Positions 13,117 to 58,550 of a stretch of DNA of 64,000 bases are shown here, piece by piece. This stretch comes from Aliidongia dinghuensis. Lineage in GTDB: Bacteria; Pseudomonadota; Alphaproteobacteria; ATCC43930; CGMCC-115725. A program made the translations under genes and the position numbers. Below the pieces are notes generated by a model. The model had not been told where the DNA came from and did no database searches. It was given only the letters and a program-made list of their open reading frames with translations. The DNA is taken from assembly GCF_014643535.1 (NCBI RefSeq), contig NZ_BMJQ01000014.1, positions 62,001-126,000 on the forward strand. The letters are read 5' to 3'. The stretch's first letter is position 1. Each line of letters opens with the position of its first letter.

Positions 13117-13118
13117 CG

Positions 13119-16483: not shown

Positions 16484-16936
16484 ATGGCGCCCATGTTCAC
16501 CTTCGCCCCCGCCGCCGAGAGCGACTTCGAGCGGCTGCTCCTGATCCGCCATGCCGCCATGCGCCCCTCGCTCGAACGGGTCGGTCGCTGGCATCCTCTG
16601 CGCGCCCGCAACCGGTTCCGCGCCGCGTTCCAGCCGGGCGAGACGCGCCTTATCCTGGTCGGCGACGCGCTCGCCGGCTGCGTCGCCCTCAAGCCGCAGG
16701 GGGACGCGCTCGAGCTCGACCAGTTCTACGTGGATCCGCATTTCCAAGGCGCCGGGCTGGGCTCGGCCGTGCTCCGCCGCCTGCTCGAAGAAGCGGACGC
16801 CGCCGGCAAACCGGTGGTGCTGACCGTGCTGCGCGAGAGCGATGCCGTCCGCTTCTACGAGCGCCACGGCTTCGCTGAGACCGGTGCGGAGGATTGGGAT
16901 CTGTTCTATCGGCGGCCGGTTCCCGTCGCACGTTGA
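16484..16936 (+). CDS. GNAT family N-acetyltransferase
   Basis: A 150-aa acetyl-CoA-dependent acyltransferase. The acetyl-CoA-binding motif A is visible in FYVDPHFQGAGLGSAVLRRL, and AVRFYERHGFAETG is the usual C-terminal motif. The acceptor cannot be predicted. A second ATG 3 codons in (MFTFAPA) is an equally good start. The gene begins 25 bp after the right end of the mobile island, so its original upstream region was probably displaced by the insertion. Confidence 0.88.
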   Translation: MAPMFTFAPAAESDFERLLLIRHAAMRPSLERVGRWHPLRARNRFRAAFQPGETRLILVGDALAGCVALKPQGDALELDQFYVDPHFQGAGLGSAVLRRLLEEADAAGKPVVLTVLRESDAVRFYERHGFAETGAEDWDLFYRRPVPVAR

Positions 16937-17068
16937 CCGCGCGCAGTGAAGCTCGCGCCTGCGTCACATAGCCTTCCCGGTCAAACTTGAGCGATGATTC
17001 GAAAAATGATATTGTAACATTAACTTAACAAGTCATCAGCAAGATGACGATAGCAGGGAGGCAGGACC

Positions 17069-18400: not shown

Positions 18401-18409
18401 CGAGCCCAC

Positions 18410-18814
18410 CTAACGAGAAGGGGCCCTGACGGCCGTCGCCTCGATCTCGACCAGCGCCTGGCGTTCGACCAGGCGCCGGACTTCGACCACAGCCATCGCC
18501 GGGAAATGCCGGCCCATGATCCGGCGGTAGGCAGCGCCGATCTCAGCCTGGTGCGCCAGGTAATCCTCGACATCGACCAGATACCAGGTGAGCCGCGTAA
18601 TGTCGCCCGGCCCCGCCCCGGCCTCGGCGAGTACGGCGAGGATGTTCTCCAGCGCCTGTCCGATCTGGGCCGGCAGGCCGTCGGCGAAGCGCCCGCCCAC
18701 GTCCCAGCCGATCTGGCCGCCGACGAAGATGGTTTCGCCCGACGCAGCGACGCCGTTCGCATAGCCCTTGGGCTTGGGCCAGCCGGGCGGCTGCAGGAAC
18801 CGGAGCCCGCTCAT
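18410..18814 (-). CDS. RidA family protein (enamine/imine deaminase)
   Basis: A 134-aa protein of the RidA/YjgF/YER057c/UK114 family, which hydrolyses reactive enamine and imine intermediates and releases ammonia. [19 protein letters not shown] and [14 protein letters not shown], with the conserved Glu, are family hallmarks. It is the last gene of the five-gene operon and its ATG overlaps the stop of the acyl-CoA dehydrogenase (ATGA). Its place in a ring-cleaving CoA pathway suggests that a nitrogen-bearing intermediate, such as an amino-enoyl-CoA, is formed. Confidence 0.9.
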
Positions 18815-19998
18815 GGCGCCACCTCCTGCAGGGTCTGGCCCTGTAGAATCTGCCGGGCGATGATCAGCTTCTGCACCTCGCTTGCCCCCTCGTAGATCCT
18901 GAGCGCGCGGATCTCGCGGTACAGTTCCTCGACCTTGACGCCCTGCTTGACCCCCAGGCCGCCGAAGATCTGCACCGCCTCGTCGATGACGCGCTGGGCC
19001 GCCTCGGTCGCGTAGAGCTTCGCCATCGCCGCCTCGCGCGTGATCCGCTGCCGCCGGACATCGCGGGTCCAGGCGGCACGGTAGACCAGCAGGGCGGCGG
19101 CATCGATCTCGAGCGCCATGTCGGCGAACTTCGCCTGGATCAGCTGCTGCTCGGCCAAGGGCTTGCCGCCGATGATCCGCGTCTTCGCCCGCGCCACCGC
19201 CTCGTCGAGCGCGCACCGCGCCATGCCGAGCGCTGCGGCCCCCACCGTCGGGCGGAAGACGTCGAGCGTCGCCATGGCGATCTTGAAGCCCTCGCCCGGC
19301 TGGCCCAAGAGCGCCGTATCGGGCACGACACAACCGTCAAAGCGCAGGGTCGCGAGCGGATGAGGGGCGATCACCTCGATCCGCTCGGCGATCTCGAGCC
19401 CGGGTGTCCGGGCGTCGACGACGAAGGCCGCGATACCCTTCGTGCCCGGCACACCGTCCACGCGCGCGAACACGACATAATGGTCCGCGATGCCGCCATT
19501 CGAGATCCAGGTCTTGAGCCCGTCGAGCCGCCAGCCGCCGGCGACGCGCGTGGCGGCCATGGTCATGGCGGCGACGTCGGAGCCGGCATCGGGCTCCGAC
19601 AGCGCGAAGGCGGCGATGGCATGGCCGGCGCGCACGGCCGGCAGATAGCGTTCACGCTGCGCTTCGGTGCCGAACAACGTGATCGAGCCCGTGCCGAGCC
19701 CCTGCATGGCAAAGGCGAAATCGGCCAAGGCCGAATGGCGCGCCAGGATCTCGCGCACCAGGCACAGGCTGCGCACGTCGAGCGCGTCGGCGCCCTGCGC
19801 ATTGGTACCGGCCTCAGGCACCGCCTCGGCGAGGAAGCCCGCGGAGCCGAGCGCCGTCACGAGCGCCCGACAGGTCCGGTCGAGATCGCCGTGCGGCAGG
19901 TTGTCGACCATGCCGCCCGCCCAGGCCTCGAGCCGCTCGGCGAGGCGGCGGTGCCGGTCCTCGAAGAACGGCCAGGAAAGGAAGCTCTTGTCGGCCAT
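18811..19998 (-). CDS. Acyl-CoA dehydrogenase
   Basis: A 395-aa FAD-dependent acyl-CoA dehydrogenase that introduces an alpha-beta double bond into acyl-CoA. Visible family features are [52 protein letters not shown] and, near the C-terminus, [10 protein letters not shown] with the probable catalytic Glu. Length is normal. It starts at MADKSFLSW, overlapping the stop of the crotonase gene by 4 bp (ATGA). It probably oxidises a cyclic or acyclic CoA ester formed after ring reduction. Confidence 0.93.
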
Positions 19999-43936: not shown

Positions 43937-46279
43937 GTGCTTCCCGCACGGATATCCAGGGCGCTGTGGTGGAGCGAATTGATCAGGCACGGTCGCGGGG
44001 CACGTTTGCACATTGACGATCGCCGCGCCGGCCGGCTTGCGGTCCTTCTCTCCGTCCTGATCCTCTGCTCGTGCCAGCGGCCCGACGGGGCCGCACCGAC
44101 GGAATCCCTTTCTGTGCCGTCGGTTGCCGACGCATCGGCCAAGCCCCAACCGCTCGAGCCGCCCGAACCCTTGGGCCTGCCAACCGCACAGAAAAGCGCC
44201 GCGCTCGTCCATCCCGGCACCGACGCCCCGGTGCGGCCGGTCGCCGGCGCCAGGTCCGGGGCGGTCGTGACCGCGGGCGACGACGTTTCGCTCAATTTCG
44301 TCGACACCGACCTACATGACGTCATGCGCTCGGTCCTGGGTGACCTCCTGGGCCTGAGCTACGTGGTCGACCCCAAGCTGCAGGCCAACATCACGGTCCA
44401 GACGACGCGGCCGCTGCATCGCGACCAGGTGCTGCCGGCGCTGCAGGGCATCCTGCGCGCCGACGGCTTCGGCCTGGTCGAGACGGCCGGGGTCTACCGG
44501 GTCGTGCCGATCGACGACCTTGCCCGTCATCCGGCCTCGACCAGCGTCGCCGGGCAGCCGGTCGCACCGGGCGCCGTCGCCACGCAGGTCGTGCCGCTGA
44601 AATACATCTCCGCGGCGAGCCTGCGCCAGACGATCGACGCGATCCTGCCCAAGGGTGTCTCGGTCCAGACCGACAGCGCGCGCAACCTTCTGATCCTGAC
44701 CGGCACCGGCGCCGATGTGGCACCCATCCTGGATCTGGTGCGCAGCTTCGACGTCGACTGGCTCGCCGCCATGTCCTTCGCGATCTATCCGGTCGAGACC
44801 AGCTCGCCGCGCGCCGTGGTCGCCGATCTCGACACCGTGTTCGGCACGCGCGGCACCGGGCCGCTCGCCGGTGCGCTGCGCTTCGAGCCGCTCGACCGGC
44901 TGAACGCCGTCCTGGTGGTGGCGCCCCAGGCGAAGTATCTCGAGGAAGCCCGGCGCTGGGTCGAGCGCTTCGACCGGGGTGACGACGAGAGCACGCCGCG
45001 GCTGTTCCAATATCATGTGCAGAACACCCGCGCGGCCGATCTCGCCCGGGTGATCTCCCAGGTATTCGGTACCGGCACGGCGGCGTCTCAGACGACGGCG
45101 CAGATCGCGCCCGGCGCCAATGCCGTGCCGCTCGCCGGCGGCACCGGCGCGCTGGGATCGGTCGGCACGACACAGACCGGCAATGGCGGACAGCTCGGCA
45201 ACGGGCAGCTCGGCAGCCAGACCAGCAGCGGACAGATCACGCTCGGCAACGCGACCACGCCCGGCACACAGACGCTCACGCCGACGACGTCGTCGTCCGA
45301 GCCGGATGATGCGCTCGCGACCGGCCTCAAGCAGGCGCTTGGCGCCGAAGCGGAAGCGAGCGGCCCGAGCCTGCCGCGGCTCAAGGTCGTCGCCGATGAC
45401 AAGAACAACATCCTGCTGGTCTACGCCCGGCCGCGCGACTACCGCATGCTGGAGGAAACGCTGCAGCGCCTCGACGTCGTGCCGCTGCAGGTGCTGATCG
45501 AGGCAACCATCGCCGAAGTGACGCTCAACAACGACCTGAAGTACGGCCTGCAATGGTTCTTCACCAAGGGCGCCGGCCGCTTCAGCCTGTCGCAGGGCAC
45601 CACCTTCAGCAATACGTCGGCCGACGTCACTGGCTCGATACCGGGGTTCAACTACGTGCTGGGCGGCACCAACACCAAGGTGGTGCTGAGCGCGCTGTCC
45701 GACATCACGCACGTGAACGTGGTCTCTTCGCCCGAGCTCTTGGTGCTCGACCATCGCACCGCGGCGCTGCAGGTCGGCGACCAGGTGCCGGTCATCAACC
45801 AGACCTCGCAGAGCACGCTCACGAGCAATGCCGCGGTCATCCAGAACATCGAATACGTCAACACCGGCGTCGTGCTGCAGGTGACGCCGCGCGTCAACAA
45901 GACCGGCATCGTGACGCTCGACATCGACCAGTCGGTGAGCGACGTCGCCAAGACCACCTCATCCGGCATCGACTCTCCAACCATAACCCAGCGCCGGATC
46001 GTGACCTCCGCCGTGGTCAAGGACGGCGCCACGATCGCGCTCGGCGGCCTCATCTTGAGCAACAAGAACGTCGGCAGCTCGGGCATCCCCCTCCTTTCCG
46101 ATATCCCCGTCTTGGGCGCGCTGTTCGGCACCCAGACGCGCAACGACGACCGGACCGAGCTCTTGATCCTGCTGACGCCGCGCATCATCCGCGACAGCGA
46201 CGAGGCGCGCGAGGTGACCGAGGAGCTGCGCAACCGCCTCGAGGCGATCAAGCCTGCCCTCGCCGACAAGCGCTCCTGA
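43937..46279 (+). CDS. gspD: Type II secretion system secretin GspD
   Basis: A 780-aa outer-membrane secretin. A hydrophobic signal ending VLILCSC looks like a lipobox, so it may be a self-piloting lipoprotein. N0-N3 domains fill the first 500 residues (LNFVDTDLHDVMRSVLGDLL; ARNLLILTGTGADVAPILDL). N3 is interrupted by a Gly/Thr/Ser/Gln-rich insertion at about 390-455. The secretin core follows, with VVSSPELLVLDHRTAALQVG, VPVINQT and GLILSNKNVGSSGIPLLSDI. The GTG at 43937 or a TTG at 43979 behind GGTGGAG are possible starts. It is cotranscribed with gspK and convergent with the other gsp genes. Confidence 0.93.
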   Translation: MLPARISRALWWSELIRHGRGARLHIDDRRAGRLAVLLSVLILCSCQRPDGAAPTESLSVPSVADASAKPQPLEPPEPLGLPTAQKSAALVHPGTDAPVRPVAGARSGAVVTAGDDVSLNFVDTDLHDVMRSVLGDLLGLSYVVDPKLQANITVQTTRPLHRDQVLPALQGILRADGFGLVETAGVYRVVPIDDLARHPASTSVAGQPVAPGAVATQVVPLKYISAASLRQTIDAILPKGVSVQTDSARNLLILTGTGADVAPILDLVRSFDVDWLAAMSFAIYPVETSSPRAVVADLDTVFGTRGTGPLAGALRFEPLDRLNAVLVVAPQAKYLEEARRWVERFDRGDDESTPRLFQYHVQNTRAADLARVISQVFGTGTAASQTTAQIAPGANAVPLAGGTGALGSVGTTQTGNGGQLGNGQLGSQTSSGQITLGNATTPGTQTLTPTTSSSEPDDALATGLKQALGAEAEASGPSLPRLKVVADDKNNILLVYARPRDYRMLEETLQRLDVVPLQVLIEATIAEVTLNNDLKYGLQWFFTKGAGRFSLSQGTTFSNTSADVTGSIPGFNYVLGGTNTKVVLSALSDITHVNVVSSPELLVLDHRTAALQVGDQVPVINQTSQSTLTSNAAVIQNIEYVNTGVVLQVTPRVNKTGIVTLDIDQSVSDVAKTTSSGIDSPTITQRRIVTSAVVKDGATIALGGLILSNKNVGSSGIPLLSDIPVLGALFGTQTRNDDRTELLILLTPRIIRDSDEAREVTEELRNRLEAIKPALADKRS

Positions 46280-46280
46280 C

Positions 46281-47177
46281 GTGGTGCGCCGACGGGCGGC
46301 GGCAGGACGTGCCTCTGGCGAAAGGGGCTTCGCGCTCATCAGCGTCCTCGCCGTGCTCGCGATCCTGGCCGTGCTGGTCGGCGGCTTCGCGCTCGCGAGC
46401 CGGCGCTCGCTGGAGCTAAGCCGCAACGCGGTCGCCGCCGCGACCGCCCGCGCCCGGGCCGAGGCCGGCATCTCGCTAGCGCTCGCCCATCTGCTCGATC
46501 CCGATGCGACGCAACGCTGGAACGCCGACGGCCGCGCGCATGCCGTGCGCTTCGACGGCGCCACCATCACCGTCACCATCCAAGACGAGGCCGGCAAGAT
46601 CGACCTCAACTGGGCGCCGCTCGAGCTCATCGCCGGACTGCTCGCCGAAGTGGGCGTCCCGACCGACGCCGCGCAGTCGATCCTCGACGCGATCGACGCG
46701 CGTCGCAAGGCCGGGACCCTGCCCGAGGCGCCGCCGGGCGACCGCGCCGGCGCGGCCCTCCTCGGCGGGCCGCGGCTCCGCGACCTGGCAGGGGCACCAT
46801 TCCGGCTGGTCGAGGAACTGAAGTCCGTGCCGGGTGTCAGCCAGGACCTCTACGACCGGCTGCGACCGGCCGTCACGGTCTATTCCGAGAGCCGGCACAT
46901 CGACCCGGCGAGCGCGCCGCGATTGGTGCTGCTGGCATTGCCCGACATGACGCCGGTCTCGGCGGACGCCATCCTGGCGGCGCGCCCAGCGACGGGCGGC
47001 CAGCCGCGACCGGACCTGCCGGCGGCGGCGCGGGCCTTCATCGGCGGCGGCGATCCGCGCGCGGTAACGATCACCGCGACCGTCGATCACCTGACCCGCC
47101 GCGCCGTGGTGTCGCTGACCGGCCGGGCGAACCAGCCGTACCAGATCCTTGAATGGCGGCAGGATTTCGGCAGCTAA
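46281..47177 (+). CDS. gspK: Type II secretion minor pseudopilin GspK
   Basis: A 298-aa pseudopilin that caps the pseudopilus tip with GspI and GspJ. The prepilin cleavage site is ERG-FALISVLAVLAILAVL. Unlike other pseudopilins it lacks Glu at +5, as is typical for GspK. VTIQDEAGKIDLNWAPLELI and ELKSVPGVSQDLYDRLRP are characteristic of the large GspK head domain. The GTG start lies 1 bp after the gspD stop. Its end overlaps the convergent gspC-like gene by 4 bp. Confidence 0.93.
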   Translation: MVRRRAAAGRASGERGFALISVLAVLAILAVLVGGFALASRRSLELSRNAVAAATARARAEAGISLALAHLLDPDATQRWNADGRAHAVRFDGATITVTIQDEAGKIDLNWAPLELIAGLLAEVGVPTDAAQSILDAIDARRKAGTLPEAPPGDRAGAALLGGPRLRDLAGAPFRLVEELKSVPGVSQDLYDRLRPAVTVYSESRHIDPASAPRLVLLALPDMTPVSADAILAARPATGGQPRPDLPAAARAFIGGGDPRAVTITATVDHLTRRAVVSLTGRANQPYQILEWRQDFGS

Positions 47178-47653
47178 CGGCGTGCCGGCTTGTCGCGCAG
47201 CAGCAGCACCGCCTCGCCCTCGCTGCCGGTGAGCACGAGCCGGTCCGACGCGATCGAACGGACTGTCCAGCCGCCGAGCGTCTCGCCCTCGTGCACGCGC
47301 AGCAGCTTCCGGTCGTTTTCCGGACGCACGAGCGCAATCCGCTCAGGTCCAGAGGTCAGGATGCCAGTGAGCTTAAAATGCTGCTCGACCGCGGACAGCG
47401 CGGCATCGCCTGAGGCGGGCGGCCGGCGGCTCTGGCTGAACAGCGGTCGCTGGGTCACGGCCGCATAGGCTTCGAGCGGCCCGAGTGATGTCGCCGCAGA
47501 CGGCGGTGCCGGCGCGGCCGAGGGCGACGTCGTCCGGCTCGGCTCGGGCGAGGCTGGCTCCCGCCCGAACGTCTGCCATTCGGCACCGATCACGGCGGCG
47601 AGCAGCACGCAGGCCGCGGCCCAAGCGAGGGTGTTCGATCGGCCGAGCCTCAT
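47174..47653 (-). CDS. GspC/GspN-like inner-membrane component of type II secretion
   Basis: A 159-aa bitopic protein: one N-terminal membrane helix (TLAWAAACVLLAAVIGAEW), a Pro/Ser/Ala-rich linker, and a small domain with QRPLFSQSRRP, FKLTGILTSGPERIALVRP and LGGWTVRSIASDRLVL. This matches the homology region that GspC uses to contact the secretin. The PDZ or coiled domain at the C-terminus of enterobacterial GspC is absent. It is the last gene of the gspE-to-C unit and overlaps gspM (ATGA). Naming between GspC and GspN is uncertain. Confidence 0.75.
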   Translation of the reverse strand: MRLGRSNTLAWAAACVLLAAVIGAEWQTFGREPASPEPSRTTSPSAAPAPPSAATSLGPLEAYAAVTQRPLFSQSRRPPASGDAALSAVEQHFKLTGILTSGPERIALVRPENDRKLLRVHEGETLGGWTVRSIASDRLVLTGSEGEAVLLLRDKPARR

Positions 47654-48228
47654 GGCGCGCCTCGCAAGAAACCGTAGAGATCGACCGAGAAGTCCAGCAG
47701 CACCCGGTCCGGATTGCGCTCGACCTGCCGGTCGGCCGCCTTGGTGCGGATGCTGAGACCGTCGAGCACCAGGGTCGGCGACCCGGCCTCCGCCGCATAG
47801 AGCACCCGCTGGATCGCCGGCAATGTCATGGACATCTCGCCGCGCACACCGACGCGGCGGAAGCCGCCGATCTGCCAGACCGGCAGCACCTGCGTGCTCT
47901 TGAGTTCGCCATGAACCGAGTCGACCAGGGTCTTGAGCCGCGCCTGCAGGTCGGCGGCGGCCAGGGTCTCGTTCGGCGCGGCGAGGAAGCCCTGGCTCGC
48001 ACGCGTCTCGCGGACGAGCCGCTCCCGCTCGGCCCGAAGTTCCGGCAACCGCTCGGCGAACGCCCGATAGCGCGCCGACAGCGCGTCGAGCCGCGCGATC
48101 TCGGCCATGCGCGCCGCATACGCGTCGAGCACGGGATCGACGACGAGTGCCTTCAGCGCGAGGAGTGCCAGGCCGAGGAGGACGAGCGCTGCGGCCCTAC
48201 CGACCCAGGTCGGCCGATGAGGCGTCAT
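47650..48228 (-). CDS. gspM: Type II secretion protein GspM
   Basis: A 192-aa bitopic protein with one N-terminal membrane helix (AAALVLLGLALLALKALVVD), a coiled segment of about 60 residues and a ferredoxin-like periplasmic domain (LPVWQIGGFRRVGVRGEMSM). It matches GspM, which partners GspL in the inner-membrane platform. It overlaps gspL and the gspC-like gene by 4 bp each. Confidence 0.85.
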   Translation of the reverse strand: MTPHRPTWVGRAAALVLLGLALLALKALVVDPVLDAYAARMAEIARLDALSARYRAFAERLPELRAERERLVRETRASQGFLAAPNETLAAADLQARLKTLVDSVHGELKSTQVLPVWQIGGFRRVGVRGEMSMTLPAIQRVLYAAEAGSPTLVLDGLSIRTKAADRQVERNPDRVLLDFSVDLYGFLRGAP

Positions 48229-49298
48229 GGCGCGGCCCTCCCCGCGACCTCAGCCGCGATGTTGAACTGCTCCTGCACGCTGTGCGGCGCTTGCGTCACC
48301 GGCGAACGGAACGACGGCTTCGCAAAGAAGCCCGAGCGATCGAGCAGGGCGATGACCGACGAGGCCGACGCCGTCGATCCGGTGATCGCGACCGCATCGC
48401 CCGACATCTCGAATGCGGTCAGCCAGGTGTCGTCGGGCAGCAGCTTGGTCAGCGCGTCGAGCGTCCGGGTCGGCGACGGCGCCGCGCGCTTGCGTTCGCC
48501 GAGAAACCCCGCGTCCCGGCTGCGGGCCTGGATCTCGGCCTCCAGCCGGAGCGCTTCATCCGCCTCGCGCTTTTCCGCTGCGACCACGTCCGTGAGCGTA
48601 TCGATGTGCTGCTGCATGCGGACGAGCGGCACCACGATCGTCGCGGCGGCCAGCACGACGGCCAGGCCGGCAAGCAGCCCGGGCACGCCGCGGCGCCATG
48701 ACCGGCTGCCGATCGATGCTTCGCGCCCCCGGAGGTCGGGCGAGGCCAGTGGATAATGCTCGTCACCCGCGACTTCGACCCGAGAGGGTGCCACGCCCAG
48801 CGCCGTCGCGCGCGCAACCAGGGCATCGACCGCGGCCCGCGCGGCGATCGTGAGTTCGACCCGCAGCTGGGCCCGCGCCCGATCGCGCTCGACCACGCGG
48901 AAGGCGTGATAGACCGTCTCGGGCGGATAGGGTGAGCGGCGCGGCAATTCGAACTCGACGGCATCCGCGAGATTGCGCTCTGCGGCGAGCGGCAGCGGCA
49001 GGATCGAGCGGAGCGCAATCTCTGCCGGCAGCTGGATCGTCGCGGCCGAGAGGCGGCGCGCCGCCACCAGCCGCTCGACTTCGGCGGCGCCCTCGCCCAC
49101 GGCAACCATCTCGGCGCCCTTGCGGATCGAGAGGCACAAGTCGCCAGTCGCAGCTGGTGCCACCACCCATTCGCTCTTCGCCGCCGCAATCCGGCGCCGG
49201 AGCCGCTCGGGCAAAGAGGCGCGCAATTCGCCGAGCCACCAGCCGAGGGCGCGGCGCGCGACGATGGAGAAGGTCGAGAAGGTGCTGGTCACCATCAT
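48225..49298 (-). CDS. gspL: Type II secretion protein GspL
   Basis: A 357-aa bitopic protein. The cytoplasmic half resembles the actin-like/PilM-type GspL domain that binds GspE (LPAEIALRSILPLPLAAERN and DAVEFELPRRSPYPPETVYH). A membrane helix (VPGLLAGLAVVLAAATIVVP) at about 212-232 precedes a PilN-like periplasmic domain. The ATG at 49298 is used; the open frame reaches a TTG 6 codons earlier. Confidence 0.88.
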   Translation of the reverse strand: MMVTSTFSTFSIVARRALGWWLGELRASLPERLRRRIAAAKSEWVVAPAATGDLCLSIRKGAEMVAVGEGAAEVERLVAARRLSAATIQLPAEIALRSILPLPLAAERNLADAVEFELPRRSPYPPETVYHAFRVVERDRARAQLRVELTIAARAAVDALVARATALGVAPSRVEVAGDEHYPLASPDLRGREASIGSRSWRRGVPGLLAGLAVVLAAATIVVPLVRMQQHIDTLTDVVAAEKREADEALRLEAEIQARSRDAGFLGERKRAAPSPTRTLDALTKLLPDDTWLTAFEMSGDAVAITGSTASASSVIALLDRSGFFAKPSFRSPVTQAPHSVQEQFNIAAEVAGRAAP

Positions 49299-49328
49299 GG
49301 TCGGGCGGTCATCCAAGAGAGCCGGACG

Positions 49329-49940
49329 TCATTGGAACCCGGCCTCGGCCGGACGCGGCGCTACGACGAGATCGGGCGCTGACGAACCATCGGCGAAGGT
49401 AATACGAAGGCGGACGAGTGCCGGCAGCCCCCAGGCGCCGGGCCAACGGTCATGCCAGCCCGGCCGTCCGGCGCCGACGTCGGCGCCGAAATAGGCGAAG
49501 CGCGCGGCGCCGACCCCGTCGAGCAGCACCGAGCGGGACTGGCGCGCGTCACCGAGGGCGCCGGCACGGAACACCAGCCGATGCCGCCCGCCCTCGTCCT
49601 CGACGCCGAGCCGCTCGGCATGGAACGCGCCCGGCGCCAGATAGACCGGCGGCGGGCCGACGAAGCGCAGGCCATTCGCCGTGCCGTCGAACGCGACGGC
49701 GTCCTCACCATCTCCCGTCGGCAGCGGGCGCGCATCGGCCAGCACCCGCTCAAGGAAATTGCTGGTGAGCGCTAGCCCGGACGCCCGGTCAAGCCGGTCC
49801 GTGCCGCCAGCAACGAGATGGCCGATCGTGCGCAACCCGCCGGACAGCAGGACCGACATCAGCCCGAAGATCGCGAGCACGACCAGCAGCTCGAGGAGCG
49901 TGAAGCCGGCAGTGCCCTCGCTGGACTGGCGGGCCGTCAT
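49329..49940 (-). CDS. gspJ: Type II secretion minor pseudopilin GspJ
   Basis: A 203-aa pseudopilin. The prepilin peptidase site is GTAG-FTLLELLVVLAIFGLM with Glu at +5. The C-terminal head has GVGAARFAYFGADVG and LPALVRLRITFADG, typical for GspJ. Its ATG overlaps the gspI stop by 4 bp. It forms the tip complex with GspI and GspK. Confidence 0.92.
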   Translation of the reverse strand: MTARQSSEGTAGFTLLELLVVLAIFGLMSVLLSGGLRTIGHLVAGGTDRLDRASGLALTSNFLERVLADARPLPTGDGEDAVAFDGTANGLRFVGPPPVYLAPGAFHAERLGVEDEGGRHRLVFRAGALGDARQSRSVLLDGVGAARFAYFGADVGAGRPGWHDRWPGAWGLPALVRLRITFADGSSAPDLVVAPRPAEAGFQ

Positions 49941-50374
49941 CGCGGCGCCCCCAGGCGGATGGTCTGGAGCGCCACGGCCCGCCGCGCGGTACCGTCGGGC
50001 CACGACACGCTCGCCGCCAGGACATAGGGCACCAGATAACCGTTGGCGGCGATATCGCTCTCGCGCCGGACCGTGGCGCGGACGTGGAAGCGCCCTTGGT
50101 CGAGTTCCGCCACGTCGCCGTCGCGGAGCGGCGCCACCGTGCCCATCGCCTCGAGCGTCGATTCGGCGAGTGCTGCCGCCGAGGTCTCGGCCTCAGCCCG
50201 CGCCATTCCGGTAAGCGCGCTTCTGGTGAGCCCGAACAGCGCGCCCAGGGCCAGCACCGCAATGGCAAGCGCGATCAGCACCTCGATCAAGGTGAAACCC
50301 CGGTCATTGCGGGCTCTCGACGGTGACCCGGCCCGTGACCCAGTCGACGCGCACGTCGAGACGGCGAGTACCAT
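49937..50374 (-). CDS. gspI: Type II secretion minor pseudopilin GspI, start uncertain
   Basis: The frame contains the prepilin motif DRG-FTLIEVLIALAIAVLALG and a GspI-type head (SWPDGTARRAVALQTIRLG). The only ATG in frame (50374) would give an unusually long 29-residue leader lying wholly inside gspH. An ATG that overlaps the gspH stop (50307, ATGA) matches the arrangement of the other gsp genes, but it is one base out of frame. A single extra base in the ACCGG that follows would give MTRGFTLIEV. Either a 1-nt deletion or sequencing error, or an unusual start, is likely. Confidence 0.8.
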   Translation of the reverse strand: MVLAVSTCASTGSRAGSPSRARNDRGFTLIEVLIALAIAVLALGALFGLTRSALTGMARAEAETSAAALAESTLEAMGTVAPLRDGDVAELDQGRFHVRATVRRESDIAANGYLVPYVLAASVSWPDGTARRAVALQTIRLGAPR

Positions 50375-50774
50375 CGGCGAGCGCCACGCCGCCGCCGGTC
50401 GAGCTGCCATCCGGAAAGAAGCGGATGGCGCCGGCCGCGCGGCCGAGCTGTTCGCCCTCGACCGTGAGCATGGCGAGGCGGAGGCCGGACGGCAGGTGTC
50501 GAGTTCGGCCCGGCCCGCCCTCAAATGCGCCGGTCGCGAGGTCGAGCGCGAATTCCGCCGGCCGCCCCTCGTCGATCGCCCGGGCCCGCGCCCGCTGCAT
50601 CTGGTCGGCCAGCTCATGGGCGGCACTCCTGAGGCGGGCACCGCCGTCGAGACGCGACAGCACCGGCGCCGCCATGGCGAAGACCGTGGCGACGAGCGCC
50701 AGGCACACCAGGAGCTCGATGAGCGTGAACCCGGCAGCACCGGCGCGGGTTCGAGCGACGGCCCCGCATGTCAT
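50304..50774 (-). CDS. gspH: Type II secretion minor pseudopilin GspH
   Basis: A 156-aa pseudopilin with prepilin site GAAG-FTLIELLVCLALVATVF and a GspH-like head (RSAAHELADQMQRARARAID). It directly follows gspF with a 4-bp overlap. In most type II loci gspG, the major pseudopilin, lies between gspF and gspH; it is absent here. A GspG role for this protein is unlikely because the conserved GspG core after the helix is not seen. Confidence 0.88.
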   Translation of the reverse strand: MTCGAVARTRAGAAGFTLIELLVCLALVATVFAMAAPVLSRLDGGARLRSAAHELADQMQRARARAIDEGRPAEFALDLATGAFEGGPGRTRHLPSGLRLAMLTVEGEQLGRAAGAIRFFPDGSSTGGGVALADGTRRLDVRVDWVTGRVTVESPQ

Positions 50775-52018
50775 GCCGCGACGTCATAGACGCTGAGGAT
50801 CGCCGTCAGCAGCGCACCGACGATGGCCGCGACGACGGCGCCGAGCAGGATGGTGACGGCCGGGACCAGCAATGCCAGCAGACGAGCGATGCCGCGCCGC
50901 GCCTCCTCGTCGAAGATCTCGCCCAGCTTCAAGAGCATGTCCTCGAGCCGGCCCGCTTCCTCGCCGGCGCGGATCAGCTGCACGGCGAGCGGCGGAATGC
51001 CCGGCGCCTCGGCAAGCGCCGTGGCCATCGGCTTGCCCGCTTCGAGGGCCGCGCCGAGCGGCGCCAGGGCGCCGGCGATCGCCCGGTTGCCGACGGCTTC
51101 TTCGGCGATCTTGAGTGCTGCGAGCGGCGAGAGGCCGTTGCCGAGCAGGGTGCCGAGGGTCAGCGCGAAACGCCCGATCTCGAGCTTCACGACGATGTCG
51201 CCGAGCCGCGGCAAGCGCAGCAGCCACGCGTCGCGCCATCGCCGGACGTCCGGCCGCTTCAGCGCCTCCCGCCCGGCGAGCGCCGCCAAGCCGGCAAAGA
51301 CCAGCGCCGCCCAGCCATAGCCGTTCACCAGGTCGGATGCCGTCAGCACCGCCTCGGCCGCAAACGGCAGAGGGCCGGCGCTCTGCTCCAGCATCGGTCG
51401 GAACTGCGGCACGACGTTGCCCAGCAGCATCGCGACCGTGCCGGCACCGGTCAGCAGCACCAGGCTCGGATAGATCAGCGCCGACGTCGCTTCATCCGCG
51501 ATCGCGAGCGAGCGGCGCAGATAGTCGGCGATCCGGCGCAGCGCACGATCGAGCGAGCCGCCCGCCTCGCCGGCGCGCACCATGCCGATGTAGAAGCGCG
51601 GGAAGAAACCGCCCTCAGCCGCCATGGCGTCGGCGAGCGTGCTGCCGGAGCGGACGCGATCCAGTACGGCCTGCACGACCTCCCGGTCGTCCGGCCGGTT
51701 GAGGATGTGCTTTGCGAGGTCGAGCGTCCGGTCGAGCGCCAGCCCGGCCTCGAGCAGGGTCGCGAGCTGCTCGGTCAGCGCCAGCAGCTGGCGCTCCGAC
51801 CGGCGCCCCAATGAGCGGCGGGGCTTCATGAGCGGCGCCGTCAGGATATGGGCCGGCAGCAGGCGGGCGAGACGGCGCTCCGACGCCACTTCGGCGCGGA
51901 TCGGCACATGGCCGAGGCGATGCAGTTCGGCCACGATCGCCGCCCGGCTCTCGCCCTCCATCTCGCCGGTGACGAGCTTGCCAGACCCGGCAACCGCCTC
52001 GTAGCGATAGAGCGCCAT
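50771..52018 (-). CDS. gspF: Type II secretion inner-membrane platform protein GspF
   Basis: A 415-aa polytopic protein with the two GspF/PilC repeats: LTEQLATLLEAGLALDRTLD in the first and FALTLGTLLGNGLSPLAALK in the second. Each repeat is followed by hydrophobic helices; the last one (LLALLVPAVTILLGAVVAAI) is at the C-terminus. The ATG of MALYRYEAVAG is used and lies 6 bp after the gspE stop. Confidence 0.94.
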   Translation of the reverse strand: MALYRYEAVAGSGKLVTGEMEGESRAAIVAELHRLGHVPIRAEVASERRLARLLPAHILTAPLMKPRRSLGRRSERQLLALTEQLATLLEAGLALDRTLDLAKHILNRPDDREVVQAVLDRVRSGSTLADAMAAEGGFFPRFYIGMVRAGEAGGSLDRALRRIADYLRRSLAIADEATSALIYPSLVLLTGAGTVAMLLGNVVPQFRPMLEQSAGPLPFAAEAVLTASDLVNGYGWAALVFAGLAALAGREALKRPDVRRWRDAWLLRLPRLGDIVVKLEIGRFALTLGTLLGNGLSPLAALKIAEEAVGNRAIAGALAPLGAALEAGKPMATALAEAPGIPPLAVQLIRAGEEAGRLEDMLLKLGEIFDEEARRGIARLLALLVPAVTILLGAVVAAIVGALLTAILSVYDVAA

Positions 52019-52024
52019 GACCAA

Positions 52025-53731
52025 TCACGGCTCCCGCGTCACGAGCAGCACCTCTTCGAGCGTGGTCACACCGGCGAGTGCCTTCGCGAGCCCGTCCTCG
52101 AACATCGGCACCATGCCCTCCTCGACCGCAAGCCGGTGGATCTCGGCCGCCTCGGCACGCCGCAGCACCAGGCGGCGGATCGGATCGCTCATGACCAAGA
52201 GTTCGGCAACGGCGAAGCGGCCGCGATAGCCGGTGCCGTGGCAGGCGGCGCAGCCGCGCGCGCGATGGAACTGGAGCGGTCCGGCCGTCTCCGGCAGCCG
52301 CAGCTCACGGGCCAGTTCCGGCGCCGCTTGATACGGTTCGGCGCAGGCCGGGCAGAGCCGGCGCACCAGGCGTTGCGCCCAGATCCCGGTGACGGTCGAG
52401 GTCACGAGGTAATTGTCGACGCCCATGTCGATGAGCCGGGCGATCGTCGCCGCGGCGCCGTTCGTGTGCAGCGTCGACAGCACCAGATGGCCGGTGAGTG
52501 CCGCCTGGACCGCGATCTGCGCGGTTTCGAGGTCGCGCATCTCGCCGATCATGACGACGTCCGGGTCCTGGCGCAGGATCGAGCGCAGCACGCTTGCGAA
52601 ATCGAGCCCGATCTGCGGCTTGACCTGGATCTGGTTGACGCCGTCGACCTGGTACTCAACCGGGTCTTCGACGGTGAACAGCTTCTTCTCCGGCGCGTTG
52701 AGCCGCATCAGCGATGTATAGAGCGTCGTCGTCTTGCCGCTGCCGGTCGGCCCGGTGACAAGCAGGATGCCCTGCGGCCGGTCGAGCAGATCGCAATAGC
52801 GGCGGATGAGCGGCGGCTCGAATCCCAGGCTCGGCAGGTCGCCGGCCAGGCTCGACCGGTCGAGGATGCGCAGCACCACGCTTTCGCCGTAGAGCGTGGG
52901 CGAGGTCGAGACGCGCAGGTCATAGTCTTGGCCCTGCACCGTCGTCCGGATCCGACCGTCCTGCGGCAGGCGCCGCTCGGCGATGTTGAGCTTCGCCATG
53001 ATCTTGATGCGCGAGGTGATCGCCGCCCTCAGGCGAAACGGCGGCGCCTCGACATCACGCAGCTGCCCGTCGATCCGGTAGCGGACGGCGAGCCGGTTCT
53101 GGAACGGCTCGATGTGGATGTCGGAGGCGCGCGCCTCGACCGCGCGGGCGATCAGCTGGCCGACCAGCTTGATGACCGGCGCCTCGCTCGCAAGGTCGCG
53201 GAGCCGGTCGGCATCCTCGAGCAACTCGTCGTCGTCCCCCACCCCGCTGCGCGGCGTCTCGTCCGATTGCGGCCCTGCCGGCCGATAGAGGCGCTGATAG
53301 GCCGCCTCGAGCTCCGACGGGATGGCGACCAACGGTCGGATCGCCCGAGCCACGACAAGCGCCATCGCGCGCCGCGCGTGGTCGTCGAACGGATCGACCA
53401 TGGCGAGCGCCAACTCGTCGGCGCTCTCGGACAGCGGCACGATGCCGTTCTGGTGCAGGAAGCCGGTGTTGAGCCGATCCGCGAGCACGGGCTCGGCCGG
53501 ATAATCGACCGGCCCGGCGAGAGGAAGGCCGAGCTCGGCCGCGACCACCTCGGCCACGTCGCGCTCGCCGGCGAAGCCGAGCTTGATCAGCAGCGCCTCG
53601 AGACGTTCCTCTGTGCCCGCCTGCAGGCGCAACGCCCGGTCGAACGCCGCCGGGTCGAGCTTGCCGCGTTCGATCAGGCCATCGGCCACCGCGCGCTCGA
53701 ACAGCCTGCGTTCCGCCCCCTGGGTCACCAT
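52025..53731 (-). CDS. gspE: Type II secretion ATPase GspE
   Basis: A 568-aa cytoplasmic ATPase. The N-terminal domain (residues 1-150) binds GspL. Walker A is GPTGSGKTTTLY, the Asp box is FTVEDPVEYQVDGVNQIQV, Walker B is PDVVMIGEMRDLETA, and the His box is HLVLSTLHTNGA. The four-Cys zinc motif is present (CPAC...CAAC). All catalytic parts are intact. It is the first gene of the eight-gene gsp unit on this strand, 234 bp from the divergent phospholipase gene. Confidence 0.95.
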   Translation of the reverse strand: MVTQGAERRLFERAVADGLIERGKLDPAAFDRALRLQAGTEERLEALLIKLGFAGERDVAEVVAAELGLPLAGPVDYPAEPVLADRLNTGFLHQNGIVPLSESADELALAMVDPFDDHARRAMALVVARAIRPLVAIPSELEAAYQRLYRPAGPQSDETPRSGVGDDDELLEDADRLRDLASEAPVIKLVGQLIARAVEARASDIHIEPFQNRLAVRYRIDGQLRDVEAPPFRLRAAITSRIKIMAKLNIAERRLPQDGRIRTTVQGQDYDLRVSTSPTLYGESVVLRILDRSSLAGDLPSLGFEPPLIRRYCDLLDRPQGILLVTGPTGSGKTTTLYTSLMRLNAPEKKLFTVEDPVEYQVDGVNQIQVKPQIGLDFASVLRSILRQDPDVVMIGEMRDLETAQIAVQAALTGHLVLSTLHTNGAAATIARLIDMGVDNYLVTSTVTGIWAQRLVRRLCPACAEPYQAAPELARELRLPETAGPLQFHRARGCAACHGTGYRGRFAVAELLVMSDPIRRLVLRRAEAAEIHRLAVEEGMVPMFEDGLAKALAGVTTLEEVLLVTREP

Positions 53732-53965: not shown

Positions 53966-55705
53966 ATGCACATCAAGTCCGCGTCGATTTTACGGAAGGC
54001 CGTGGCAAGCACGCTTATGGCTGCCACGTCGCTCAGCACCACGCTCGTTCCGATGTCCGCCCTGGCTGCGACCACCGGCACGGCCACGCCGATCCAGCAT
54101 GTCGTCGTGCTGTTTCAGGAGAACGTCTCGTTCGACCATTATTTCGGCACCTATCCGAAGGCCGCCAACAACGGCGGCGAGACGACCTTCGCCGGCGTCG
54201 CGGCGCCGAGCTTCACCGCCAAGACGAACACGCCGGACGTGGCCGGCCTGACGCCGGCTCTGCTGACGCACAACCCGAACAAGGATACGAGCGGCAACGC
54301 CGCCAACCCGTTCCGGTTCCTGCCGTCGCAGGCCTTCACCTGCAGCATGAACCATGCCTACACGGGTGAAGAGGCCGCGGCCGACAAGGGCCTGATGGAT
54401 CAGTACCCGCAGAACAACGCCAACCGCGGCAACGGCTGCGACCCGGCCGGCTCGACCGTCATGGGCTATTACGACGGCAACCTCGTGACCGCCTACTGGA
54501 CCTACGCACAGCATTACACGCTGAGCGACAACAGCTACGGCACGAACTTCGGTCCGTCGACGCCGGGTGCGCTCAACCTGATTTCGGGCAACACCTACGG
54601 CGGCCAGCTGCCGATCGCGACCTCCTCGGGCAATGCCTACGATCCGGGCAACACGACGGGCGAGCAGGACGTGAGCCTGCTGAACGATCTCGACGCCTAT
54701 CTCGACGATTGCGGCGGCGACAAGGGCGGCACGGCCCATGCCGCGACGCTGCAGATGAACGGCCCGAACATCGGCGACCTGATGAACGCCAAGGGTGTTA
54801 CCTGGGGCTGGTTCCAGGGCGGCTTCGCGCCGACCCAGGCCGCGACCTTCGACGGCAACGGCAACATGCTGACCCCGGCCGTGTGCGGCGCCACCCACAC
54901 GGGCCACCAGGTCACCGTCAACGGCACGACCTACACGGTGCCGAACCCGACGATCAATTTCACGGGCGACATCCATACGAACGTCGCGGACTATTCCTCG
55001 CACCACGCGCCGTTCATGTACTACCCGAACACCCGGAACCCGCATCACCTGCGCCCGACCTCGGTCGCGGCGATCGGCACGACGGACCAGGCCAACCACA
55101 ACTACGACACCAGCGACTTCTTCGCGGCACTCGCCAACGGCAACCTGCCGGCGGTCAGCTTCATCAAGGCACCGGCCTATCAGGACGGCCATCCGGGCAA
55201 CTCGGACCCGCTGACCGAGCAGGCCTGGATCGTGTCGACCATCAATGCGATCCAGCAGTCCTCGGCCTGGGGCACCACGGCGATCATCATCGCCTATGAC
55301 GATTCGGACGGCTGGTACGACCATGCCATGCCGACGAACGTGCGCCAGTCGACGATCAGCGCCGACGCGCTGACCGGCACCGCCGCCTGCGGCACCGCGC
55401 CCACCGGTGGCGTCCAGGGCCGTTGCGGCTTCGGCCCGCGCCTGCCCATGATCCTGGTCTCGCCCTACGCCAAGACCAACTTCGTCGACCACACGCTGAC
55501 CGACCAGTCGTCGATCATCGCGTTCGTCGAGAAGAACTGGAACCTCGGCTTCATCGACGGCCCGACGGCGCCGACCTACGGCTCGGGCTCGACCGACCGC
55601 TACGCCGGTGCGCTCGACGGCATGTTCGACTTCGTCGACGCGCCCAACACCCGCCAGCTCCAGCTCGACCCGATCAAGGGCACGATCGTCGGCAAGGCCT
55701 GGTAA
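53966..55705 (+). CDS. Exported phosphoesterase / phospholipase C family protein
   Basis: A 579-aa protein with a Sec signal peptide (cleavage near MSALA-ATTG). It belongs to the phosphoesterase family PF04185 (phospholipase C, AcpA-type acid phosphatase). Metal and catalytic motifs are visible: VVVLFQENVSFDHYFGTYP, NLISGNTYGG, IIIAYDDSDGWYDHAMP and RLPMILVSPYAK. It would hydrolyse phosphodiester or phosphomonoester bonds outside the cell. It stands beside the gsp genes and is the best candidate substrate for that system. Codon use is like that of a strongly expressed gene. Confidence 0.9.
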   Translation: MHIKSASILRKAVASTLMAATSLSTTLVPMSALAATTGTATPIQHVVVLFQENVSFDHYFGTYPKAANNGGETTFAGVAAPSFTAKTNTPDVAGLTPALLTHNPNKDTSGNAANPFRFLPSQAFTCSMNHAYTGEEAAADKGLMDQYPQNNANRGNGCDPAGSTVMGYYDGNLVTAYWTYAQHYTLSDNSYGTNFGPSTPGALNLISGNTYGGQLPIATSSGNAYDPGNTTGEQDVSLLNDLDAYLDDCGGDKGGTAHAATLQMNGPNIGDLMNAKGVTWGWFQGGFAPTQAATFDGNGNMLTPAVCGATHTGHQVTVNGTTYTVPNPTINFTGDIHTNVADYSSHHAPFMYYPNTRNPHHLRPTSVAAIGTTDQANHNYDTSDFFAALANGNLPAVSFIKAPAYQDGHPGNSDPLTEQAWIVSTINAIQQSSAWGTTAIIIAYDDSDGWYDHAMPTNVRQSTISADALTGTAACGTAPTGGVQGRCGFGPRLPMILVSPYAKTNFVDHTLTDQSSIIAFVEKNWNLGFIDGPTAPTYGSGSTDRYAGALDGMFDFVDAPNTRQLQLDPIKGTIVGKAW

Positions 55706-55718
55706 GTCCCGCGCGCCA

Positions 55719-55753
55719 GGCGACGGTCCGGGGCCCCGCTCCGGACCGTCGCC
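55719..55753 (+). terminator. Terminator after the phospholipase gene
   Basis: GGCGACGGTCCGG and CCGGACCGTCGCC form a 13-bp perfect stem with a 9-nt loop, 13 bp after the stop. No T run follows, so it may also serve as an mRNA 3'-end stabiliser. Confidence 0.65.
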
Positions 55754-55789
55754 CTCCCCCGGGGCCCCTATCGATAACGGAGATTTCCC

Positions 55790-56395
55790 ATGAACATGCG
55801 CGTTCTTCTCGCGGCCGCAGGGATGGCGCTCGCCGTCGTGGCCGCCCAGCCAGCCAAGGCCGACATCATCGTCAACGGCGACTTCGGGACCAACGACTTC
55901 ACCGGCTGGACCTTGAGCGGCAGCAACCTCAGCGCCGTCAGCGTCGGCCACGCCACGGCCGCCCCGGGCTCGATCGGCGCACCGACCGGCAATGCCGCTT
56001 ATCTCGGCACCTTCGGCAGCGAGATCGACCTGTCGCAGGCCCTCTCGACCGTCGCGGGCACGACCTATGACCTGACGTTCCAGCTGCAGGCCGACAGCGG
56101 CACGGCGGCGCCCGACTATTTCACGACGACGATCGACGGCGTGGTGCTGAGCCAGCTGTCGCTCCTCAACGTCGGCGACCAGGTCTTCCAGACGTTCGAC
56201 GCGCAGTTCACCGCGACCGGCAGCTCGACGCTGCTCAACTTCGCCGTCTCCAACGATCCCTCGTTCTTCGAGCTCGCGAACGTGTCGGCGACCGACGTGC
56301 CGGAGCCGCCGACCTGGGCGCTGCTGATGGCGGGCGTTGCGGGCCTCGTCGGGCTCGGCCTGCGCCGTCGCAACACGCCTGCGACCTTCGCCTGA
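55790..56395 (+). CDS. PEP-CTERM sorting domain protein
   Basis: A 201-aa exported protein. A Sec signal peptide (cleavage near AKA-DIIVNG) is followed by a beta-rich body (FGTNDFTGWTLSG) of the kind seen in extracellular matrix proteins. The C-terminal PEP-CTERM tripartite anchor is VPEPPTWALLMAGVAGLVG with LRRR after it, and it directs cleavage by an exosortase. No exosortase gene is in the window. A GGAGA ribosome-binding site precedes the ATG. Confidence 0.9.
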   Translation: MNMRVLLAAAGMALAVVAAQPAKADIIVNGDFGTNDFTGWTLSGSNLSAVSVGHATAAPGSIGAPTGNAAYLGTFGSEIDLSQALSTVAGTTYDLTFQLQADSGTAAPDYFTTTIDGVVLSQLSLLNVGDQVFQTFDAQFTATGSSTLLNFAVSNDPSFFELANVSATDVPEPPTWALLMAGVAGLVGLGLRRRNTPATFA

Positions 56396-56416
56396 GACCA
56401 TACGCGATCGACATGG

Positions 56417-56451
56417 GCGAGGCCGTCCGTCCCGGGCGGCCTCGCCTCTTT
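56417..56451 (+). terminator. Terminator after the PEP-CTERM gene
   Basis: GCGAGGCCG (56417-56425) pairs with CGGCCTCGC (56437-56445), and CTCTTT follows. It lies 21 bp after the stop codon. Confidence 0.7.
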
Positions 56452-56504
56452 GATTCTGCCAAGATCATGCGCCGTCTCCCGCCGAGGCGGCCGAGGAGCC
56501 CCGG

Positions 56505-58550
56505 GTGAGCCGTTTCCTTGCCGCAATCCAATTCACCGCTCTGCTGCTGCTTGTGGCGCCCCAAATCGTCGCGCCCCAGGCGGCGCGCGCGGACTGGGAC
56601 GATCAGCCCGGTTTCGGCTTCACCGGCGACTACCTCGTCACGAGCCCTGAGGCGCCTTGCGGCACCGGCACACCGCCGCGCGGCCATTTCCCGCCCGAGA
56701 TCCCCACCACGGCCCCGTTCCAGATCGTGACGCTGACGGTGAAGCAGGACCCGAACCGGCTCTGCTACGTGTTCGGCAAGATCGCCGAGGCGCCGACGAT
56801 CCGCGTGCGCCAGGGCGAGGACATGTTCATCAAGTTGCGGAACGAGATCACCGATCCGGCGGCGCTCGACAAGCTGGTGCCCGTGGGCCATCTCGACGAC
56901 CCCAATCCCGAGATCAAGGCCGAGGCCGGCACCTACCCGGTCGAGCCGGCGATGCATCACAAGGCGACCGGCCGGACCAACCTGCATGTCCATGGCCTCG
57001 CCGTATCGCCGAACGTGCCGCAGGACGAGACGTTGAAGACCTGCGTCGATCCGGCGACCGGCCCCTCGCCGACTAGCCCGGCCCCGACCAGCCCGGCCCT
57101 CTGCGGGCGGCGCGAGTTCGTCTATCACTATCGCATCGCCCCCACGATGCCCGCCGGCCTCTACTGGTACCATCCGCATGTCCATGGCGAGGTCCAGGCG
57201 CAGATGCTGATGGGCCTGTCGGGCGCCTTGATCGTCGAAGGTCCGGCCGATGACGCGCGCCGCGCCGCCGGGATCGAGGACCGCGTCTTCGTCATCCGCC
57301 AATCCCAGGATCTGGACGCGCCGCCGCCCGCTGCCGCCACGGCCGATGCGGCACCCGCCAAGCCCGAGGCAGCCAAGCCCGACGCGCCCAAGCCCGAGGC
57401 AGCGAAGCCGCATCGCAAGCGGCCGAAGCTCGAGGGCGAGCAAATCGACACGGCCGACGAGATGGCCTGCTCGGACAACGCCGGCACCGACGAGCTGACC
57501 CTGAACGGCGCCCAAGTGCTCGACGGCGACGCGAAGGACACCGACCTCGCCCATCTCGAGATCGCCGCCGGGCAGAAGCAGCTCTGGCGCGTGCTGAACG
57601 CAGCGACGGACTCCTTCCTCGATCTGCAGCTGGTCGACGAGACGGGCAAGGCAGTGCCGATGGCGATCGAGGCGCGCGACGGCGTGCCGCTCATCAACGA
57701 CGCCGGCAACCTGCTGGCGGCCGAGAGCACGGCGGCGGCACAGCTGGTGCCGCCCGCGGGTCGGCTCGAGTTCTACGTCGACGCGCCAGCCGTAGGCCGG
57801 AAGCTCTATCTCGTCAGCCACAAGGTCGACACCGGCTGCGCCGGCGACAAGGTGCCGGAACGCAAGCTCGCCTATCTGACCGCGATCGAGCCGACCCAGC
57901 CGCTGCCGCCGGCGAAGCTGCCGGCGCCGATCACGACGGCCGCCCTGCCCGGCCCGTTCAACGGCATCCTGGCGCGCAAGACCGACAAGGTCCGCACCCT
58001 CGCCTTCGCCGAATATCCGCATCCGGGCTCGGACGACCTCAACGACTTCTATATCTTCGAGCGCAAGCCCGGCGCCGTCGTGCGCCCTTACGATATGGGC
58101 GGCGAGCCGGCGATCACGGTCAATGCCGGCACGACCGAGGAATGGGTCGTCGAGAACTGGACCAACGAGCTGCACGCCTTCCACATCCACCAGGTGCACT
58201 TCCGCGTGCTCGAGGTGAACGGCAAGCCGGAGAAAGATCCGGAACTGCTCGACGTCATGACTGTGCCGGCTGCGCGTACGAGCTCTGGCGACGTGACCAA
58301 GGCGAAGGGACCTGTCATGCCCGGCCGGATCCGCATCAAGCTCTATTTCCCACCGGAGCTGGCCGGCGACATCCCGTTCCACTGCCATCTGGTCGACCAT
58401 GAGGATTCCGGGATGATGGCGGTGCTGCGCGTGCTGCCGCCGCAGACCGCACAGCAGCGGAAAGCGGAACTGACGCCGGCGGACCTGCTGAAGAACGCGC
58501 CGATCTGCCGCGCAGCCGACGGCACCGCGCCTTCGTCGAAGCCGGAATAG
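56505..58550 (+). CDS. Multicopper oxidase family protein
   Basis: A 681-aa exported oxidase with a Sec signal peptide (cleavage near AARA-DWDD). All four copper-binding motifs are present: NLHVHGLAVSP, YWYHPHVHGE, HAFHIHQVHF and PFHCHLVDHEDSGMM. They bind one type 1 and a trinuclear cluster that reduces O2 to water. A low-complexity AKPEAAKPDAPKPEAAKP insert at about 280-310 separates the first two cupredoxin domains. The GTG start has a GAGGAG site. The substrate (metal or phenolic) is unknown. Confidence 0.92.
   Translation: MSRFLAAIQFTALLLLVAPQIVAPQAARADWDDQPGFGFTGDYLVTSPEAPCGTGTPPRGHFPPEIPTTAPFQIVTLTVKQDPNRLCYVFGKIAEAPTIRVRQGEDMFIKLRNEITDPAALDKLVPVGHLDDPNPEIKAEAGTYPVEPAMHHKATGRTNLHVHGLAVSPNVPQDETLKTCVDPATGPSPTSPAPTSPALCGRREFVYHYRIAPTMPAGLYWYHPHVHGEVQAQMLMGLSGALIVEGPADDARRAAGIEDRVFVIRQSQDLDAPPPAAATADAAPAKPEAAKPDAPKPEAAKPHRKRPKLEGEQIDTADEMACSDNAGTDELTLNGAQVLDGDAKDTDLAHLEIAAGQKQLWRVLNAATDSFLDLQLVDETGKAVPMAIEARDGVPLINDAGNLLAAESTAAAQLVPPAGRLEFYVDAPAVGRKLYLVSHKVDTGCAGDKVPERKLAYLTAIEPTQPLPPAKLPAPITTAALPGPFNGILARKTDKVRTLAFAEYPHPGSDDLNDFYIFERKPGAVVRPYDMGGEPAITVNAGTTEEWVVENWTNELHAFHIHQVHFRVLEVNGKPEKDPELLDVMTVPAARTSSGDVTKAKGPVMPGRIRIKLYFPPELAGDIPFHCHLVDHEDSGMMAVLRVLPPQTAQQRKAELTPADLLKNAPICRAADGTAPSSKPE

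Follow-up and report, generated by a model that had tools for sequence, protein, structure and literature searches.

The genome of Aliidongia dinghuensis (G000 in our set; 7.37 Mb in 91 contigs, estimated to be 100% complete) encodes a ten-gene type II secretion system (T2SS) of the Xps type, as was revealed by profile searches in a stretch of 64,000 nucleotides on contig C14 (NZ_BMJQ01000014.1, positions 62,001 to 126,000), referred to below as the window. The system appears to be complete except for its major pseudopilin, its own gspG having been deleted, and the shaft of its pseudopilus is most likely built from GspG encoded elsewhere in the same genome.

The locus consists of two units, gspD and gspK on the plus strand converging tail to tail on gspE-F-H-I-J-L-M-N on the minus strand. 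Since gspK ends at position 47177 and the gene of the gspC/XpsN-like linker at position 47174, their stop codons share 4 bp. The coordinates of the two convergent units given in a preliminary description of this DNA hold. The stop codon of gspF and the ATG of gspH likewise overlap by 4 bp (50771-50774), at the site where relatives carry gspG, thus leaving no room for this gene. Profile searches found neither gspG nor the prepilin peptidase gene gspO in the T2SS locus of the window, in agreement with the preliminary description, which had noted both the overlap and the lack of the two genes.

The remaining parts of the machine were all recognized. The platform components F, L and M and the linker C/N are present (the linker being weakly matched), and the motifs of the ATPase GspE, namely Walker A, the GEMRD box, a Walker B-like motif and the CxxC...CxxC tetracysteine zinc motif, are intact. 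The secretin scores 477 bits as GspD versus 188 bits as PilQ, the latter value being below the PilQ cut-off; assignment to type IV pili is not borne out, as neither a PilQ-type secretin nor a second (PilT retraction) ATPase gene was found in the window locus. The products of gspH, gspI, gspJ and gspK are minor pseudopilins, whose scores fall below the equivalog cut-offs, yet the best match of each is the expected family. These data bear on the earlier proposal of a reduced pseudopilus, taken here to mean that one of the system's own pseudopilins (e.g., GspH) would have taken over the role of the major subunit and rendered GspG unneeded. The presence of H, I, J and K in an otherwise intact operon would suit such an arrangement; however, each of these proteins best matches its own minor family, the window-type relatives carry the same H, I and J along with a separate G, and a complete GspG is encoded in the same cell, so that we reject this proposal as very improbable.

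Both the major pseudopilin GspG and the prepilin peptidase GspO are encoded in the genome. The whole-genome profile search gave exactly two matches to the GspG family, on contigs C8 (74509-74835) and C26 (20535-20861), with proteins scoring 149.7 and 146.5 bits, respectively, at an equivalog cut-off of 88.85. The prepilin N-terminus family has 12 matches in the genome: the two gspG, the window's gspK, and one each of gspH, gspI and gspJ in every one of the three systems; no other prepilin-type gene was detected by this whole-genome search. Among three matches to the A24 family, the one on C8, located beside gspE, is a full-length GspO with both A24 domains, the others lying on C4 and C6. The statement of the preliminary description that the system must borrow its missing parts is thus supported by two gspG and one complete gspO outside the locus. 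Three of the seven matches to the T2SSE family are T2SS-type ATPases (those of C8, C40 and the window), and three of the six secretins belong to T2SSs. The C8 system is arranged as O / E-F-H-I-J-L-M-N-D-K, its gspG being encoded by the other strand, tail to tail with gspK and 5 bp from its end, and the system of C40, a contig of 15.5 kb, as E-F-H-I-J-L-M-N-D-K, with no gspG found on the part read. Consequently, gspG occupies the site between F and H in none of the three systems, and no gspG lies near two of them. Beside gspE of C40, an inverted partial copy of gspK was observed (L016, 11208-11850; 643 bp, 88.8% identical).

The history of the F/H junction was reconstructed with a family set of 39 genomes, 24 of them with gspG and 24 with a match to the GspF profile; 40 stretches were read, and the trees of GspF and GspG comprised 40 and 36 rows, respectively. 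In the GspF tree the window groups with G016, G017:C483, G019 and G023:C11 (97/93), and gspG stands between F and H in five of the five window-type loci read (these four and, nearby, G038:C102). The locus G016:C191 has the layout of the window, D-K / N-M-L-J-I-H-G-F-E, with the addition of gspG between F and H, and G017 matches the convergent layout up to the contig end; the convergent split, singled out previously as an oddity, is thus ordinary for this type. Retention of gspG at the F/H site in the relatives shows that the window-type system once possessed the gene and that the window lost it, through a local loss from the ancestral position between gspF and gspH. The preliminary description had considered that gspG might be found adjacent in a close relative, revealing a local deletion confined to this assembly. 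The first part came true, in loci from other genera of the same family; the second did not, because the gspF/gspH overlap is clean and the genome is estimated as complete. For the same reasons it is hardly credible that a private gspG of the window is simply missing from the assembly. The draft state of the genome and the short C40 contig with its inverted partial gspK copy could speak for such a gap; against it stand the estimated completeness, the position of the clean overlap within a long contig, and the recurrence of machines without gspG at F/H in G007, G013, G014, G022 and G023, as well as in G045 and G201 of other families.

The two surviving gspG go with the C8-type systems. In the GspF tree, these (type-B) systems form a clade of 15 rows (100/100), in 14 of which gspF is succeeded immediately by gspH, without a gspG in between, no gspH being seen beside gspF in the remaining one (G022:C167). 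Where seen, their gspG is located past gspK, in opposite orientation (e.g., G010, G007:C92, G027, G005:C307), or, alternatively, beside gspO (G031, G020). In the GspG tree, the proteins of C8, C26 and G010 cluster together (100/100) within a type-B clade of 17 rows (100/100), apart from the type-A GspGs; since the two surviving proteins thus fall in the C8-type clade, the old window gspG did not simply move. Relocation to C26 in particular was considered and rejected, the C26 gene being a member of the type-B group and 93% identical to the gene of C8, of which it is a copy. A distant T2SS-like type with its own divergent gspG, forming a separate clade (100/100), was also observed in G001, G004, G005 and G021 (L134, L164, L165, L167).

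The DNA of the C26 and C8 gspG is 93.0% identical across 483 bp, including an identical N-terminal region, and unrelated outside. In the stretch read, the C26 gene is linked to no T2SS, being the sole T2SS gene of its cluster. The PUMA3-like cluster harbouring this lone gspG spans positions 70-19902 of the stretch (L015), on the same strand. Its exoprotein and signalling genes encode a TpsA-like protein (DUF3739), an STN-domain protein, TonB, an extracytoplasmic function (ECF) sigma factor, FecR and ShlB/TpsB; it also includes ExbD with an ExbB-domain protein, in which ExbB is joined to DUF2341 and to laminin-G-like domains, and two tandem PstS/DING-like genes, of which one was scanned and assigned to PBP_like_2, the other being its near-copy. 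This gene set resembles the Hxc/PUMA3/LapA-DING/two-partner region of Pseudomonas, where VreI controls hxc plus a two-partner system (PMC2729926), and where Hxc genes flank the gene of a DING protein that is secreted through the Hxc system (PMC2225411). In contrast to Pseudomonas, which has the whole hxc operon in the region, the C26 cluster contains gspG as its only T2SS component.

GspG is the subunit of the filament, and the maturation of all five pilins depends on GspO (PMC10128026). In the known mode of working, GspG must therefore be supplied to a machine that has D, E, F, L, M and N and an H-I-J-K tip yet lacks GspG. The simplest source would be the C8/C26 protein, produced from the C8 gene adjoining gspK and/or from the C26 gene; it would be matured by GspO of C8, the one complete prepilin peptidase found, and the window machine would contribute its own H-I-J-K tip to prime the shaft. 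From these gene contents we infer that GspG may be co-expressed with the window machine and polymerise on it. Of the three T2SSs, at least those of the window and C40 would then share one type of major pseudopilin, with secretins, platforms and tips remaining private. A broader model, in which several T2SSs depend on one trans-encoded major pseudopilin and the extra gspG, tied to the PUMA3-like cluster of cell-surface signalling and phosphate-binding proteins, makes GspG a signal-controlled valve on all machines, is put forward as a tentative possibility, which we consider rather doubtful at present.

Comparison of the number of machines with that of gspG in related genomes was made in an order survey of 24 genomes at least 95% complete, counting matches to T2SSM_b (GspM) versus gspG. 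More than one T2SSM_b was found in four genomes, all of which have fewer gspG: three versus two in G000 and two versus one in each of G013, G014 and G022. The six genomes with one T2SSM_b (G006, G009, G010, G016, G027, G038) have one gspG each, that of G009 being split across two contigs; G031 has gspG and GspF with no GspM match, and the remaining 13 have neither. GspF assigns the machine of G013 and G014 to the C type and GspG assigns the adjoining gspG-gspO pair to the B type, so that a B-type GspG is linked there to a non-B machine. Neither of the T2SS stretches of G022 read shows a gspG. A gspO-gspG pair was observed on another contig of this genome (L129, G022:C93, 8557-9957); the 19 kb of sequence read there revealed no further T2SS gene.

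Among the non-B machines of the family, seven of eight lack gspG at F/H when a B machine is present in the genome (the window, C40, G007:C192, G013:C437, G014:C476, G022:C121 and G023:C557, with G023:C11 as the exception), versus none of five when none was found (G016, G017:C483, G018, G019, G038). Fisher's test gives p = 0.005 for this difference, a post hoc value uncorrected for kinship, with G013 and G014 being sisters and G007, G017, G018, G019 and G023 only 78-87% complete; G017:C419, where gspG directly follows gspF, is not among the rows of the GspF tree and does not enter the count. Another possibility is dedicated supply, whereby the C26 gene would serve the window or C40 only and the C8 gene only its own system, with no sharing. 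Such a division would agree with the existence of two copies, one of them unlinked to a T2SS in the stretch read; nevertheless, it seems unlikely, as the DNA of the copies is 93% identical, with the same N-terminal region, there are three machines for two genes, and in G007, G014, G022 and G201 one gspG was detected for two machines.

In a wider survey of the class, 38 of 232 genomes at least 97% complete were found to have gspG. In 23 of the 38, a GspF match ends at most 1 kb upstream of gspG on the same strand, a count made with a GspF search that also picks up probable type IV pilus PilC genes and in some genomes gave no GspF near gspG. Among the other 15, displacement of gspG was confirmed by reading in five (G000, G010, G045, G201, G257); G266 has G together with H-I-J and apart from F, in G190 G adjoins H at the contig end with F not seen, and eight are unread (G043, G050, G055, G093, G117, G125, G192, G246). 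Displacement was also suspected in G058, G122, G143 and G259 and rejected on reading the loci, which have a normal F-G-H with L-M-N-D elsewhere, and G094 was dropped, its GspM match being an isolated L-M pair. Three genomes of the class (G000, G045, G201) have more than one T2SSM_b, and in each of them one machine or more lacks gspG at F/H. G045 possesses two machines and two gspG, neither of the latter beside a machine in the stretches read. G201, of another family, was observed to have two T2SSs and one gspG (L171, G201:C233, 3742-14288; L170, G201:C17, 9876-15900), with about 293 bp between F and H of the C233 system and no gspG found there. Displacement of gspG is thus not unique to the family of G000, as G045 and G201 demonstrate, and the counts of G201 mean that fewer gspG than machines recur in another family.

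Several observations weigh against supply of GspG in trans. The search for sites diagnostic of types A and B found no clear sign of adaptation of the window platform to a foreign GspG: the window GspF carries the A residue at 22 of 31 sites and the B residue at 3. For GspE, a protein for which contact with GspG is not expected, the corresponding numbers are 29 and 7 of 43, and N, D and K yielded no usable sites. G023 has a B machine and still retains an A machine with its own gspG, hence a genome with a B machine does not always lose gspG at F/H. As for the counts, G022 is 7% contaminated, and one of the two GspM matches of G013 is a fragment at a contig end. Finally, the start codon scan revealed no ATG, GTG or TTG within 24 codons of the GFTL motif of the window gspI, the closest in-frame start being the ATG at 50374, 25 codons upstream and within gspH; this gap could point to an error, to a lesion or to a leader that is long.

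A lesion would fit a machine that degenerates as a relic after the loss of gspG, its secretion gone. The operon without gspG, the gap near the leader of gspI and the long branch of the window GspF (0.87, versus 0.10-0.18 for the tip branches of G016, G017 and G019) are in line with decay. However, the reading frames are open, most neighbouring genes adjoin directly or share 4 bp, the GspE motifs are intact, and identity to G023:C11 is only slightly lower for the window GspE (0.62) than for that of G016 (0.69), with nearly the same values for H, I and J. Considering these facts, we judge degeneration quite unlikely, and supply of GspG in trans remains the explanation we favour.

The genes of the window locus are listed in Table 1. 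Next to it and divergent from gspE lies the gene of a phosphoesterase with a signal peptide (53966..55705, plus strand; PF04185, 252 bits; TIGR03396, 158 bits, below the cut-off), which belongs to the phospholipase C / acid phosphatase family and is a candidate cargo of the window T2SS. Together with genes of a PEP-CTERM protein and of a protein with a multicopper oxidase domain, it occupies positions 53966-58550, all on the plus strand, and these products may be cargo as well.

Table 1. Genes of the Xps-type T2SS locus in the window and the profile matches on which their assignment is based.
Gene	Position	Strand	Evidence
gspD, secretin	43937..46279	+	TIGR02517, 477 bits (cut-off 351); Pfam Secretin, Secretin_N, N0 domain
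gspK, minor pseudopilin	46281..47177	+	NF037980, 88 bits (cut-off 130); T2SSK_1st
gspC/xpsN-like linker	47174..47653	-	NF041470 XpsN, 32 bits (weak); no Pfam family; position
gspM, XpsM type	47650..48228	-	NF040576, 138 bits (above cut-off); PF10741, 75 bits
gspL, PilN-domain type	48225..49316	-	PF05137, 52 bits; position
gspJ	49329..50003	-	NF006453, 49 bits (below cut-off); prepilin N-terminus
gspI	about 49937-50374	-	NF047828 XpsI, 49 bits (below cut-off); GFTLIE motif at 50299
gspH	50304..50774	-	XpsH, 100 bits (cut-off 160); PF12019
gspF, TTG start	50771..52024	-	TIGR02120, 305 bits (cut-off 424); PF00482 (Pfam T2SSF), above cut-off
gspE, ATPase	52025..53731	-	TIGR02533, 618 bits (cut-off 630); PF00437 (T2SSE), 455 bits; MshEN, 55 bits

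If GspG is indeed shared, T2SSs of this kind would be split in a modular way into a common shaft and private tips, platforms and secretins, and the major pseudopilin would be interchangeable between diverged T2SSs within one cell. The GspFs of the window and C8 are 39% identical; a shaft shared across such proteins would mean that the specificity for machine and substrate resides in the tip, the platform and the secretin and not in the shaft. Strains of this kind would also be natural cases in which loss of one small gene family stops several secretion systems together. For annotation, the lack of gspG or gspO in a T2SS locus would not necessarily mean that the system is incomplete.

Among known systems, that of Gluconacetobacter diazotrophicus was reportedly described in 2004 as a single one with the order lsdG-O-E-F-H-I-J-L-M-N-D, where lsdG and lsdO precede E-F-H and G is at the edge. 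Its displaced lsdG and lsdO would resemble the displaced G and O in the family of G000, whereas the window differs from this reportedly single system in having gspG wholly outside the locus and in the presence of several machines. The pseudopilins of the levansucrase T2SS of G. diazotrophicus are GDI0483-0485 in the operon GDI0481-0490 (PMC2765452). Dispersal of T2SS genes and sharing of a prepilin peptidase between systems are already known: in Acinetobacter and Legionella the genes are dispersed over five loci (PMC4713064; PMC6617341), and the prepilin peptidase of Acinetobacter is common to the T2SS and type IV pili (PMC4713064). These organisms, as far as the available text of the reports goes, have one T2SS and one gspG, with no sharing of a major pseudopilin among T2SSs (PMC4713064; PMC6617341). 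A search of the literature, mostly without subscription papers and with sources available in part, found no account of several T2SSs sharing one major pseudopilin. A further likeness is offered by the Xps system of Xanthomonas, which has, like the window, XpsM-, XpsH- and XpsI-type parts, an XpsN-like linker and the E-F-...-H-I-J order. In X. euvesicatoria the genes are xpsE, xpsF and xpsGHIJKLMCD, with xpsG following xpsF (PMC11981180); the window, by contrast, lacks gspG and has D-K as a convergent unit of their own.

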